DNA from: SAR86 cluster bacterium
Lineage (GTDB): Bacteria; Pseudomonadota; Gammaproteobacteria; Magnimaribacterales; Magnimaribacteraceae
NCBI GenBank assembly: GCA_023703575.1
Contig: CP097969.1
Location: forward strand, 310,001-374,000
Length of the DNA stretch: 64,000 nucleotides
Direction: 5' to 3'
The translations under genes were made by a program, and so were the position numbers. The notes beneath the pieces were generated by a model. The model ran no database searches and was not told the DNA's origin. It saw only the letters and a list, made by a program, of their open reading frames with translations. This document shows, piece by piece, positions 54,728 to 59,319 of the stretch; the first letter of the stretch is position 1; each line of letters starts with the position of its first letter.

Positions 54728-55303
54728 ATGGTAATTGAAAAAACTAATAAGTATCTTTTCTTACAGTCTTCTATGGTACTGGGGATAATTTTATTCTTAT
54801 TTTATTTAGTTTATGACCTGGGTATTTTAAGTTTAATAATTGACTCTGATAAAAGCCGAATATCTCTTGCCATCCTAGTTATTTATTTCTGTGCAACTAT
54901 TCATTGGTATATTCTAAGCATAGCATTAGGTAAGCAGATTGATGCAATTGATTCGTTTTCTATTGGCAAAGATATAAAGACCATTTCTTTAATGGAAGAT
55001 GATCTATCAAATAAACATGCCCTCGGTTATATGATAGTAGATATTCTTTTAAAGCTAGGACTTACCGGGACGGTAATAGGATTTATCTTAATGCTACTTC
55101 CTATAGGTGAGATAAAAGACTTTGATACACAAATAATTCAACAACTTCTTTCAAAGATGAGTGGAGGTATGGCTGTAGCTCTTTACACAACTTTAACAGG
55201 CTTAATAACAAGTATATTTTTAAGGCTTCAGTATTTTTTATTAGATTCAAGCCTTACTAGTCTTATTAACTATTTATCCTCAAAATTACTGCATGAAGAA
55301 TAG
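54728..55303 (+). CDS. MotA/TolQ/ExbB-like membrane protein
   Basis: 191 residues with about four hydrophobic segments: two near the N-terminus (11-35 and 43-65), and two in the second half around GLTGTVIGFILMLLPIG (about 112-128) and SGGMAVALYTTLTGLITSIFL (about 140-161). The LTGTVIGFI and ALYTTLTGL segments resemble the conserved channel helices of the MotA/TolQ/ExbB family. It lacks a long cytoplasmic domain like that of MotA. The next gene overlaps by 11 bases and encodes a one-TM partner, arguing for a stator-like pair. Confidence 0.72.
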   Translation: MVIEKTNKYLFLQSSMVLGIILFLFYLVYDLGILSLIIDSDKSRISLAILVIYFCATIHWYILSIALGKQIDAIDSFSIGKDIKTISLMEDDLSNKHALGYMIVDILLKLGLTGTVIGFILMLLPIGEIKDFDTQIIQQLLSKMSGGMAVALYTTLTGLITSIFLRLQYFLLDSSLTSLINYLSSKLLHEE

Positions 55304-55916
55304 ACTTCTTCAAAAAAATGAAGAACAAGATGTCTTCACTGATTTACTCTTTAATGCACTCTTAGGATTTGCCTTCATGTTTGCGATTGCATTTATGCTA
55401 ATCAATAGCTCTGATGATAGTGGCAAGATTGAATCAAAAGCAGAAGTTATGATCTCTGTGAGTTGGCCAGATAGTCATCCGGATGATGTAGATGCAATAG
55501 TAGAAGATCCACAGGGAGGTTTAGTTTGGTATCACAATCGAGATAGTGGCTTAATGCATTTAGATAGAGATGACAGAGGCATATTTGCGGATAAGATGAA
55601 TGTTAATGGTGCCGCGATATCTAATCCTATTAATCAAGAAATTGTAACTGTCAGAAAACTCCAGCCTGGCGAATATGTTGTAAATTTACTTCACTATAAA
55701 GCCAATTATCCCGAACCTCTTGAAGTAGATGTCAAGGTTGAGAAACTTAATCCTGAAGTTGAATTGATCTATTATGGTAAACATAATTTAGAGGGTGTGG
55801 GAGATGAAAAAACTGCTGTTAGATTCACAGTTGATGCAAGTAAGGATATTGTCAACGTAAATCAATTGACTAAGAGACTTTTAACTAGAGCTCTAAATGC
55901 AGATTCTAAGGACTAA
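55293..55916 (+). CDS. One-TM periplasmic-domain partner of the TolQ-like protein
   Basis: 207 residues: a short charged cytoplasmic N-terminus, one TM helix (LLFNALLGFAFMFAIAFMLI, about 18-37), then a periplasmic domain from residue 45. That topology is ExbD/MotB-like, with a conserved Asp (DVFTDLLFN) just before the helix as in those partners. The domain has VSWPDSHPDDVDAIVEDPQGG, GLMHLDRDD, LQPGEYVVNLLHY and RFTVDASKD, which I associate with an uncharacterised periplasmic beta-sandwich. It is not an OmpA peptidoglycan-binding domain, so not a flagellar stator. Confidence 0.7.
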   Translation: MKNRLLQKNEEQDVFTDLLFNALLGFAFMFAIAFMLINSSDDSGKIESKAEVMISVSWPDSHPDDVDAIVEDPQGGLVWYHNRDSGLMHLDRDDRGIFADKMNVNGAAISNPINQEIVTVRKLQPGEYVVNLLHYKANYPEPLEVDVKVEKLNPEVELIYYGKHNLEGVGDEKTAVRFTVDASKDIVNVNQLTKRLLTRALNADSKD

Positions 55917-55921
55917 GAAAA

Positions 55922-56479
55922 GTGATCGAAGAAAGACTTTTTTTGATACTTACTTATTTAGTTGTAACTACCTTACTGTTATGTTTTTATTTTTATTCCC
56001 AATTTTCTAGACTAACAAAGAATTTAACTGTTCTCTTAGTAACTTTATCTTATTTTTATACATGGTTTTCCGTTGAAGGACTTTTAGGTTGGCCGTCTCA
56101 ACAAGAAATGCCTAGTCAATTTAGATTGCTTTGGATTGATATCAATGAACCAGATAAAGGAGATTCTGAAGATGGCGAGATCTTTTTCTGGGTTAAGGAA
56201 TTAAATAAAGTAGATCAGCCTTACGGAAAGCCAAGAGCTTATTCTATTAAATGGTCAGAAGAAAATGCAAAAAAAGCTGAAGAGGCCATAACAAAAATGG
56301 AAGATGGAGAAATTCTAAATGGAAATATTAGTAGAAATATACTCACCGGTGATCAAGAAAAATCTGACGGTACTGTTAGTGAGAAAGACGGCACATCTAG
56401 CACAGATGAAGGAGAACCTACTTTTCAATTCAAAGAAGTATCTCCCCCAGTTTTACCAAGCAAGAGCCCACTGAGCTAA
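55922..56479 (+). CDS. Third gene of the TolQ-like cluster, two-TM protein
   Basis: 185 residues beginning at GTG 55922 (GAAAAGTG). Two hydrophobic segments at the N-terminus (LFLILTYLVVTTLLLCFYFYS and LTVLLVTLSYFYTWFSV), then a soluble domain with GLLGWPSQQEMPSQFRLLW, DINEPDKGDSEDGEIFFW and KPRAYSIKWSEE, and a low-complexity, acidic C-terminus. The EPDK...FFW...PRAY pattern recurs, as I recall, in the third gene of similar clusters in other proteobacteria. Function unknown; it completes the three-gene unit at 54728-56479. Confidence 0.6.
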   Translation: MIEERLFLILTYLVVTTLLLCFYFYSQFSRLTKNLTVLLVTLSYFYTWFSVEGLLGWPSQQEMPSQFRLLWIDINEPDKGDSEDGEIFFWVKELNKVDQPYGKPRAYSIKWSEENAKKAEEAITKMEDGEILNGNISRNILTGDQEKSDGTVSEKDGTSSTDEGEPTFQFKEVSPPVLPSKSPLS

Positions 56480-56484
56480 TCAAT

Positions 56485-58695
56485 CTAGTCGTCTAGGTCT
56501 TGCCAAGTCAGCCTTTCCTCTCCTGAAGCTATTTCACCTAATGCAACCAATCTATCTTGTTCAGCCCTTGCTCTAACATAATTATGAATTAATTTTGTTT
56601 CCTCTTGAGTGACTACATCGCTAAAGGAAGACATGCCATTACTGGATAGTATCCCATCCAATACTATAAGCTCAAATGTGTCATCTGTATGTGCTACTAA
56701 TCTTAAATCAGGTATAACGCCTCCTGACCTAGCCACCAATCCATGGCAACCGGCACAAAAATCATGATATAAGATTTCTCCTTTCTTCATATCAGAATTA
56801 CTGACATTAGTTAGAAGCTGCTGAGGTATATCTCTATTTCTTAAATTCGGCTGAGGATACTCCTGTGTTCCATTGAGCTTGAATACCAATAATCTACCAG
56901 AATTATTATAGTTTAATGAAGCTGGTTTCTGGACAGGGTCTAAAGGTTCACCAGAAAAAAGATCTCCACCCCCAGTTCCAGTTAAGATTGAAACATATTG
57001 TACTCCATCAATCATATAGGTTATTGGAGGTGCAAGCATGGAAGTATATGTATTAAACTGCCAAAGTTGTTCACCAGAATCTTTATCATAGGCTGTGAAC
57101 ATGCCTAGGGCATCTCCTTGAAATACCAACCCGCCTTCAGTGGCTACAACACCGCCATTCCAATAGTGAGGAATCTCTATTGACCAAGATTCTTCTCCTG
57201 TAAGTGGATTAAAGGCTTTTAGATAACCTTTAGGTGTGGGCCAATCATCAATATTATCTAAAAATAACTGAGTAATTCTTCCAAATTCTAGCCCTAAGTT
57301 TGCTCTACCTGGATTTCTTTTATAGATGCCGGTCTTTCTATACTCATCGGCTAGAGAGTAAATTAAAGGATTATCTTGAGCAGGCAGGTATACCATGCCA
57401 GATTTAGCATCAACTGACATAGCTTGCCAGTTATGAGCTCCTAAAGGTCCAGGGAGTACCCATTTTGCTTCTTCAGAGTAATCCATGTCAGGATTCTCTA
57501 CCGGCCTTCCAGTTTCTAAATCAACATGAGATGCCCATGTTACTGTAGCAAAAGGATTAGCTCTTAAGAGCTTTCCATCCTCCCTATCAATTACATAGAA
57601 GAAACCATTTTTAGGAGCCTGTAAGAGTACTTTTCTGTCTACCCCATCTATGTTCATCTCTACAAGAGCCATATCTTGCACTGCTGTAAAGTCCCAATTA
57701 TCTCCAGGTGTAGTTTGGTAGTGCCATTTATAAACACCAGTATCAACATCAACTGCAACAATAGACGATAAGAATAGATTATCTCCACCACCTGGAGATC
57801 TAATTTCCCTTGTCCAAGGGGAGCCGTTTCCAACTCCTAAATAAAGATTATTAAAGTCCGGATCATAGACTATGGAGTTCCAAACAGTTCCGCCACCGCC
57901 AAATTCCCACCAATTACTACCTTTCCACGTACTTGCAGCTACTTCCATAATGGGATCTTCAAAACCAAGACTAGGATCACCAGGAACTGTATAGAATCTC
58001 CAAACTTGCTCTCCCGTTTCAGTATCATAAGCAGTTACATAACCTCTTACTCCAAATTCAGCTCCTCCATTTCCAATAAATACTTTACCTTTCGCTACCC
58101 TCGGAGCCCCAGTAATTGTGTAGAATCTATCAGAATCTTCTATAGTATTTACCTCCCAAACTTTCTCACCGTTTTCAGCATTGAGTGCAAATAATCGTCC
58201 ATCTAAACTTCCGAAATAAACTTTACCGTTATAAACAGCGACGCCTCTATTTACAACATCACAACAAGACTTTCTTGCTACTTCACCGGGAACTTCGGGA
58301 TCAAAAGACCAAACTGTTTCTCCTGAAACAGCGTCAATAGCGAATACTTTACTCCATGAGCTAGTTAAAAACATAATTCCATCTACAACAATTGGAGTAG
58401 ATTCTTGTGCTCTATTAGTTCCCATATCTTTGTACCATGCTAATGATAGCTGGGAGACATTTTCTTTATTGATTTGTGTTAGAGGAGAGAATCTATTCTC
58501 TTCATAAGTCCTGCCATGAGAAAGCCAATTACCTGGTTCAGACTCAGCAGCAATTATTCTTTGATCATTTATCTGACCTATGGTGGTAGAACCTGAAACA
58601 ACAGTTTTTTCTAGAGCCTGGTCTTTTTCAGATTCACTGCATCCAACAATGGTTAAAATCGATATTAACCCAAAATAGAAGATTTTATTTTTCAT
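56485..58695 (-). CDS. PQQ-dependent alcohol dehydrogenase with C-terminal cytochrome c
   Basis: 736 residues from the ATG at 58693-58695 (AGGA upstream), which creates a lipoprotein signal (lipobox TIVGC, Cys19); a longer start is less likely. WD-type tryptophan docking repeats of an eight-blade propeller are frequent (for example ENGEKVWEV, TGEQVWRF, SGEQLWQF). The adjacent Cys pair SCCDVVNRG makes the vicinal disulfide near PQQ, and GDNWDFTAVQ carries the catalytic Asp with Thr two residues on, unlike the lanthanide-type Asp of XoxF, so calcium is likely. CAGCH at 647-651 binds heme c. This makes it a quinohemoprotein alcohol dehydrogenase, anchored in the periplasm. No pqq biosynthesis genes are in the window. 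Confidence 0.93.
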   Translation of the reverse strand: MKNKIFYFGLISILTIVGCSESEKDQALEKTVVSGSTTIGQINDQRIIAAESEPGNWLSHGRTYEENRFSPLTQINKENVSQLSLAWYKDMGTNRAQESTPIVVDGIMFLTSSWSKVFAIDAVSGETVWSFDPEVPGEVARKSCCDVVNRGVAVYNGKVYFGSLDGRLFALNAENGEKVWEVNTIEDSDRFYTITGAPRVAKGKVFIGNGGAEFGVRGYVTAYDTETGEQVWRFYTVPGDPSLGFEDPIMEVAASTWKGSNWWEFGGGGTVWNSIVYDPDFNNLYLGVGNGSPWTREIRSPGGGDNLFLSSIVAVDVDTGVYKWHYQTTPGDNWDFTAVQDMALVEMNIDGVDRKVLLQAPKNGFFYVIDREDGKLLRANPFATVTWASHVDLETGRPVENPDMDYSEEAKWVLPGPLGAHNWQAMSVDAKSGMVYLPAQDNPLIYSLADEYRKTGIYKRNPGRANLGLEFGRITQLFLDNIDDWPTPKGYLKAFNPLTGEESWSIEIPHYWNGGVVATEGGLVFQGDALGMFTAYDKDSGEQLWQFNTYTSMLAPPITYMIDGVQYVSILTGTGGGDLFSGEPLDPVQKPASLNYNNSGRLLVFKLNGTQEYPQPNLRNRDIPQQLLTNVSNSDMKKGEILYHDFCAGCHGLVARSGGVIPDLRLVAHTDDTFELIVLDGILSSNGMSSFSDVVTQEETKLIHNYVRARAEQDRLVALGEIASGEERLTWQDLDD

Positions 58696-58788
58696 TTGTA
58701 GTCCTAACTTTTCTATTAACTCTAACTCTTTTTTATAAGATTTGGAATACAACATCTCTTTAATTTTTACTATATTATTAACTCACAT

Positions 58789-59319
58789 ATGAAGAAATTA
58801 ATAACAATTTTAATTATATTTACTCCATTGCTTGTTATGACAAAAGTTTTAGATAATTTATCTGATAAACGAATCGAATGGGTACCATTTTCAGATCAGG
58901 TAATGGGTGGAATTTCTGAGGTAAATTTTTTGGAAAGAGAAGAGAATGGTCTTTCGCATTATCATATGGAAGGAAATGTGAGCACTGAGAATAATGGTGG
59001 TTTTATTCAATTTAGAGCGAATGTTAAGATTGAAGATCTTCCTTATAAGGGCCTGAAAATCAAAACTAGAGGAAATGGAGAAGAGTATTTTATTCACATC
59101 AGGACACCTAAAACTCGCTTACCTTGGAATTATTATGCCTCTTCTTTTACCGCGAGTAGTGAATGGGAGTCTATAAAAGTACCATTTGATTCATTTAAAA
59201 AATCAGGATTAATATTACCGCGCAAGTTTAAAGCATCTGATATCAAATCGATTGGAATTGTAGCTTTTGGTAAAGATTTCTATGCGGATATTGATTTAGC
59301 TAGTATTGAGCTTTACTAA
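58789..59319 (+). CDS. CIA30-family secreted protein
   Basis: 176 residues with a signal peptide (MKKLITILIIFTPLLVMT). WVPFSDQVMGGISEVNFLERE, GNVSTENNGGFIQFRA and the terminal DIDLASIELY match the CIA30 (NDUFAF1-like) family, a beta-sandwich carbohydrate-binding-like domain. In mitochondria it assists complex I assembly; bacterial roles are unknown. There is no clear Shine-Dalgarno, and AT-rich TATATT-like hexamers lie within 12-18 bases of the ATG. The 3' end overlaps the convergent crotonase gene by 4 bases. Confidence 0.88.
   Translation: MKKLITILIIFTPLLVMTKVLDNLSDKRIEWVPFSDQVMGGISEVNFLEREENGLSHYHMEGNVSTENNGGFIQFRANVKIEDLPYKGLKIKTRGNGEEYFIHIRTPKTRLPWNYYASSFTASSEWESIKVPFDSFKKSGLILPRKFKASDIKSIGIVAFGKDFYADIDLASIELY

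Follow-up and report, generated by a model that had tools for sequence, protein, structure and literature searches.

A candidate ion-driven membrane motor of three proteins in SAR86 bacteria, with a possible quinoprotein client and a branch in phages

Three adjacent genes of a SAR86 cluster bacterium, here called A, B and C, lie within the 64,000-nucleotide stretch of contig CP097969.1 (positions 310,001 to 374,000) that is referred to below as the window and whose numbering is used in Table 1. A first-pass annotation, made from the letters of the DNA, had described them as a proton-channel-like system, and the reading frames and the A/B overlap that it gave proved exact, with all three frames on the forward strand. 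Five nucleotides beyond the end of C, and outside the trio operon, lies a convergent gene for a PQQ-dependent dehydrogenase, flanked by one for a CIA30-like protein that occurs in many SAR86 loci. Profile searches with all three trio proteins covered Pfam, NCBIfam and PADLOC, where B and C found no meaningful match.

Table 1. Coordinates of the trio, of its neighbours and of a lipoprotein found after C elsewhere (window numbering unless another locus is named).
Feature	Position	Strand	Remarks
Protein A ORF	54728-55303	+	ATG start; 191 aa
Protein B ORF	55293-55916	+	ATG start; 207 aa; 11-nt overlap with A
Codon of B Asp17	55341-55343	+
B beta-sandwich	about 55446-55862	+	residues 52-190
Protein C ORF	55922-56479	+	GTG start; 185 aa
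PQQ-dependent methanol/ethanol-family dehydrogenase with C-terminal cytochrome c region	56485-58755	-	TIGR03075; PedF-like cytochrome c match
CIA30-like protein, beside the PQQ dehydrogenase	58789-59319		Pfam
Lipoprotein after C, locus L241	9076-9786
Lipoprotein after C, locus L244	3864-4706
Lipoprotein after C, locus L254	8810-9553		also in L239, L248 and L251

Protein A matches the Pfam family MotA_ExbB (PF01618) with E = 3.7e-10 and 40.1 bits, well over the curated cut-off of 22.9 bits, and a profile built on it reaches solved chains of ZorA-type proteins, TolQ and MotA in the PDB, the best match being 8vvn, a large chain with a MotA/TolQ/ExbB domain of Zorya type. In 103 non-redundant A proteins the third transmembrane (TM) helix carries the signature G111-x2-G114-T115-x2-G118, whose glycines are present in all 103 and whose threonine in 98, while T155 in TM4 is found in every one; the polar residues of the channel helices, which the first-pass annotation had wished to see examined, are thus strongly conserved. 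A further residue, Asp41, located after TM1 and present in 102 of the 103, looks like a signature of the trio's own A family. These matches support the earlier reading of A as a four-TM channel subunit of the MotA/TolQ/ExbB superfamily, a reading that had been staked on profile searches of this kind.

Protein B, the best conserved of the three, has one TM helix only (residues 10-37), and near its start stands Asp17, nearly invariant in 85 sequences. B thus shares with ExbD and TolR a lone TM helix that bears an Asp close to its cytoplasmic side. Its periplasmic part is modelled by AlphaFold2 as a beta-sandwich of about 12 strands (mean pLDDT 90.7, from an 82-sequence alignment; for both B and C, rows from annotated phage records were left out of the alignments). 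Invariant in B are W58, D65, D67, D93, D94, G96, E116, R121 and G126, which include an Asp-rich motif reminiscent of YfaP-type DUF2135 and PPC beta-sandwiches; DUF2135 is matched by six of the 85 B proteins and PPC by three, all weakly (best 0.0039), and neither by the window's B at a Pfam threshold of 0.1. The modelled fold has no match in the PDB at E<=1e-3, and a search of BFVD finds for it only other viral proteins, each matched weakly and in part. Neither among the Pfam families of the 85 B members nor among the listed PDB matches of the B model does ExbD/TolR appear, and Pfam finds in B no OmpA-like peptidoglycan-binding domain of the kind present in MotB and ZorB. The earlier picture of a one-TM partner with an ExbD-like Asp and an unusual periplasmic domain, devoid of peptidoglycan-binding or TolR-like parts, is therefore upheld by both domain searches and fold.

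Protein C begins with two TM helices (residues 2-25 and 30-54), which, by the positive-inside rule and with Lys33 conserved in the short loop between them, are predicted to leave both termini outside. The periplasmic domain that follows is modelled as beta-beta-beta-alpha-beta (mean pLDDT 88.3, 96 sequences) and ends in a conserved Pro-rich tail; G56, P104, R105, G129, P179 and K181 are conserved, Arg105 being invariant. The region first noted as EPDK/PRAY is recovered across the family as EP..K / PR. Comparison of the fold with the PDB gave nothing at E<=1e-3, and no TonB/TolA-like match. Several gammaproteobacteria carry C as a tandem duplicate (L195, L198, L201, L206, L207).

The trio is widely kept. 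Most genomes of the same GTDB family carry A, and the order A-B-C, with high conservation, is maintained in all 20 SAR86-family relatives fetched; B is 99-100% identical in the SAR86 records AG-899-B14, AG-422-M05, AG-461-M22 and AG-359-K21. Beyond the family, B was found in 40 of 370 sampled Gammaproteobacteria and in 24 of 398 sampled Pseudomonadota, a few of these matches being weak, and the gene order holds in nearly all loci fetched farther afield, in distant proteobacterial genomes as well as on Azospirillum megaplasmids. This conservation is far beyond chance, and the similar trios in other proteobacteria to which the first-pass annotation had referred are real: the three genes, whose co-occurrence had been put forward as decisive, occur together in SAR86, in distant bacteria, in Azospirillum and in the viral loci described below. 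Around the trio, the content of individual operons differs. Several bacteria other than SAR86 have, downstream of C and on its strand, a gene for a conserved lipoprotein (YFPL..G..WEY ... EWYAPGVGLVK; Table 1), whose L241 copy has no match in NCBIfam. In L243, L245, L250 and L252, C is followed by a VWA-FHA protein, and inspection by eye places an L,D-transpeptidase-like protein upstream of A in all four and a small DUF302-like lipoprotein upstream of A in three of them.

The neighbour facing C in SAR86 is a quinohaemoprotein: the dehydrogenase matches TIGR03075 at E = 2.1e-188 (627 bits, cut-off 480), and its residues 655-732 match a PedF-like cytochrome c. Such a convergent PQQ-dependent alcohol dehydrogenase (PQQ-ADH) adjoins C in 67 of the 80 GTDB loci fetched from SAR86-like genomes, while the genes upstream vary. 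Its presence was compared over 84 genomes. TIGR03075 was matched above its curated cut-off in 25 of 33 trio-positive gammaproteobacteria (the stronger matches among the 40 B-positive of 370) and in seven of 33 trio-negative ones (Fisher p=1.8e-5), a value to be read with the negatives drawn from listed genomes rather than at random and with genomes that are not phylogenetically independent. PQQ-ADH was likewise present in all of 15 further chromosomal trio carriers, and in none of three genomes with divergent B proteins like that of phage 16-3. In eleven genomes (G000, G083, G127, G156, G168, G237, G278, G374, G381, G620, G658) no more than 20 kb separate it from the trio, although beyond the Pseudomonadales clade this linkage is mostly loose (about 3-20 kb). 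Two trios are set inside quinoprotein clusters: that of L241, where PQQ-ADH, a PedF cytochrome, a SoxYZ-like carrier, a quinoprotein-relay hydrolase and a CXXCW protein precede A-B-C and the lipoprotein, and that of L254, which runs from PQQ-ADH through an ABC-type importer and A-B-C to a TIGR03866 beta-propeller.

Eight trio carriers lack PQQ-ADH (G098, G144, G175, G191, G259, G296, G328, G382; families f42, f88, f119 and f135), and the four of them sampled in the B tree form one clade with support 100/100. Since one trio clade is thus wholly without the enzyme, quinoproteins cannot be the sole client, and this clade speaks for a somewhat doubtful alternative, namely that the trio is a general Tol-like motor of envelope maintenance and that its association with PQQ arises secondarily from common lineages and neighbourhoods. 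The VWA-FHA protein, the L,D-transpeptidase-like protein and the small lipoprotein of some operons, all of envelope type, would also fit such a role. Once that clade is set aside, however, every chromosomal carrier tested has PQQ-ADH (25/25 and 15/15) as against 7/33 controls, and a Tol-Pal system for envelope maintenance already exists in the SAR86 genome itself.

As to the source of the cofactor, the SAR86 genome contains no candidate for PqqE; a search for pqqC found no match there and none in its controls either, which makes it weak evidence. The lack of a PqqE candidate suggests that SAR86 has a quinohaemoprotein alcohol dehydrogenase without PQQ synthesis of its own and depends on PQQ from others. 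It is therefore unlikely that the trio helps to make or export PQQ in SAR86, and a reading of it as PQQ exporter was dropped for this reason. With a quinohaemoprotein dehydrogenase and no detectable pqqE, SAR86 probably scavenges PQQ, and the trio, with a three-part layout like that of ExbB-ExbD-TonB, could be imagined as a TonB-like energy supply for outer-membrane uptake of scarce PQQ or lanthanides destined for the quinoprotein. We judge this improbable, because C crosses the membrane twice and its fold matches nothing TonB-like, no outer-membrane receptor recurs beside the trio in the loci inspected, an ordinary ExbB-ExbD-TonB run is already present, and phages would derive no obvious benefit from it.

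That phages possess the trio emerged from a match of B to phrog_1735 (PHROG, 1e-4), a family of unassigned function, which prompted a search among phage sequences. About 26-27 Rhizobium/Sinorhizobium phage records were recovered with B, including p040 of phage 16-3, and the phage B genes are flanked by an A-like and a C-like protein, one on each side. IMG/VR holds at least 160 relatives of the trio; in the best 80 of these loci A and B are adjacent in all 80, and C is listed in 77. The terminase family phrog_2 was detected in 23 of 50 IMG/VR contigs, many contigs being fragments. In phages A is shorter, at mostly 140-180 aa, than in bacteria (200-250 aa). In a tree of B from which four long or 16-3-like rows were omitted, 41 viral and 40 bacterial sequences are separated by a single branch (support 100/99; recovered in 100% of bootstrap trees); when those rows are included, 16-3 and three alphaproteobacterial-type rows make up a separate divergent group. 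The split implies that the trios of phages and those of chromosomes parted long ago and did not arise by recent capture.

Some phage trios sit in or by lysis genes. In L062, L064, L066, L070 and L072, A directly follows genes for an endolysin, an Rz-like and an Rz1-like protein, which in this group match at 1e-49, 4e-9 and 1e-10, respectively; in L063 the endolysin comes after C and a weakly Rz-like gene before A, and L088 has a weakly Rz-like lipoprotein ahead of A. The locus L246, in the bacterial genome G793 from the same phylum, resembles a prophage: genes for a holin-like protein, endolysin and trypsin-like protease come first, followed by an A-B-C set related to the trio of phage 16-3. 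Secreted trypsin-like proteases adjoin the trio or lie near it in L028, L046, 16-3 and L246; a trypsin-motif pattern retrieves those of L028 and L046 only, Pfam identifies p036 of 16-3 as such a protease at 3.6e-20, and the cluster-37 protein of L059 has a Pfam protease match just under the cut-off. In the AP-16-3 phage paper (PMC10460002), a search by term turned up no reference to the trio genes as membrane or lysis genes. Many phage copies are found outside lysis modules, next to terL and a GDP-mannose dehydratase, to DnaK and ClpS, or to gyrA and a late sigma factor, a distribution that speaks for the envelope-maintenance alternative, under which phages would use the trio for envelope stability or to block superinfection. 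Clusters of DnaK, Hsp20 and ClpS with the trio occur on very large contigs; by eye, the trio of the large phage contigs L057, L083 and L089-L095 stands between DnaK/Hsp20 genes and genes for ClpS and an SbmA/BacA-like transporter.

Taken together, the anatomy of the trio is well supported, and its best reading is as a new family of motors powered by the proton-motive force (PMF). In the mechanism we propose, A, B and C would form an inner-membrane motor driven by the gradient of protons (or sodium), with an arrangement like that of Tol and TonB but unrelated periplasmic parts. Five copies of A would surround two of B, the passage of ions by Asp17 and the threonines of TM3 and TM4 would be turned into movement of the B dimer, and B and C would then act mechanically on a client in the periplasm. 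For bacteria the most likely client would be PQQ-dependent periplasmic alcohol oxidation, through loading of cofactor or metal or through upkeep of the quinoprotein, for example, while in infection the phage branch would turn the same motor on the envelope of the host, perhaps to assist lysis beside spanins, endolysin or secreted proteases. The full proposal of a distinct ion-gradient motor family with the PQQ apparatus as bacterial client and a phage branch acting on the host envelope is put forward tentatively, at a little under even confidence; the assignment of jobs within it, quinoprotein upkeep in bacteria and envelope work, perhaps lysis, in phages, is speculative, and the two branches may not share a single client. 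It seems rather unlikely, on present evidence, that tailed phages have their own old lineage of envelope motors, homologous to a quinoprotein-servicing bacterial motor, which in some of them represents a new class of lysis component that draws on the host's PMF and breaks through the envelope in concert with spanins, endolysin or secreted proteases.

Few motors of this kind are known to us, namely the flagellar stators, Tol, TonB, Zorya and gliding systems. If the proposal is right, one more widespread member with new working parts would join them, abundant ocean bacteria such as SAR86 would have a candidate machine supporting their periplasmic PQQ-dependent dehydrogenases, and phages would encode proton-gradient-driven envelope machines of their own; trio-carrying Rhizobium/Sinorhizobium phages are available as isolates, which makes direct testing possible. 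The phage branch, the quinoprotein link and the lysis-cassette and protease contexts were absent from the first-pass annotation and are new here, and a search of the literature on ExbB/TolQ-type genes in phages or with PQQ or quinoproteins yielded nothing relevant, and no publication on the trio.

The first-pass annotation had placed the trio outside the flagellar and the usual Tol and TonB systems, and the SAR86 genome agrees: its four MotA_ExbB genes are one in a Tol run (ybgC-tolQ-tolR-tolA-tolB-like), two in an Exb run (exbB-exbB-exbD-tonB-like; gene names in both runs were given by eye from ORFs) and A itself, so that the trio is a third system beside a complete TolQRA and a complete ExbB-ExbB-ExbD-TonB. 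It resembles TolQ-TolR-TolA and ExbB-ExbD-TonB in comprising three inner-membrane proteins, a channel subunit with threonines in TM3 and TM4, a one-TM partner with a channel Asp and a third subunit facing the periplasm. It differs from them part by part: A, unlike TolQ and ExbB, carries a near-invariant Asp41 of its own; the periplasmic part of B is a beta-sandwich and not an ExbD/TolR fold; and C, unlike TolA and TonB with their one TM helix and long periplasmic linker, has two TM helices, a short periplasmic domain and no match to theirs in the PDB. With MotA-MotB and PomA-PomB the trio shares a MotA_ExbB core and an Asp-bearing one-TM partner, but B has no OmpA-like domain and the context is not flagellar. 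Zorya comes nearest among the defence profiles of PADLOC, where A matches ZorA (E=2e-4) over the core only, and the 8vvn match of the A profile points the same way; that the trio might be a Zorya-type system of phage defence or sensing is nevertheless very improbable, since A, at 191 aa, lacks the long cytoplasmic tail of ZorA, B lacks the peptidoglycan-binding domain of ZorB, neither an effector nuclease nor other cytoplasmic effector genes adjoin the trio, its chromosomal inheritance is steady, and a branch apart is found in phages, the very targets of such a defence. Tests of domains, folds and context thus set the trio apart from the flagellar, Tol, TonB and Zorya systems alike, with a shared channel core and periplasmic parts of its own.
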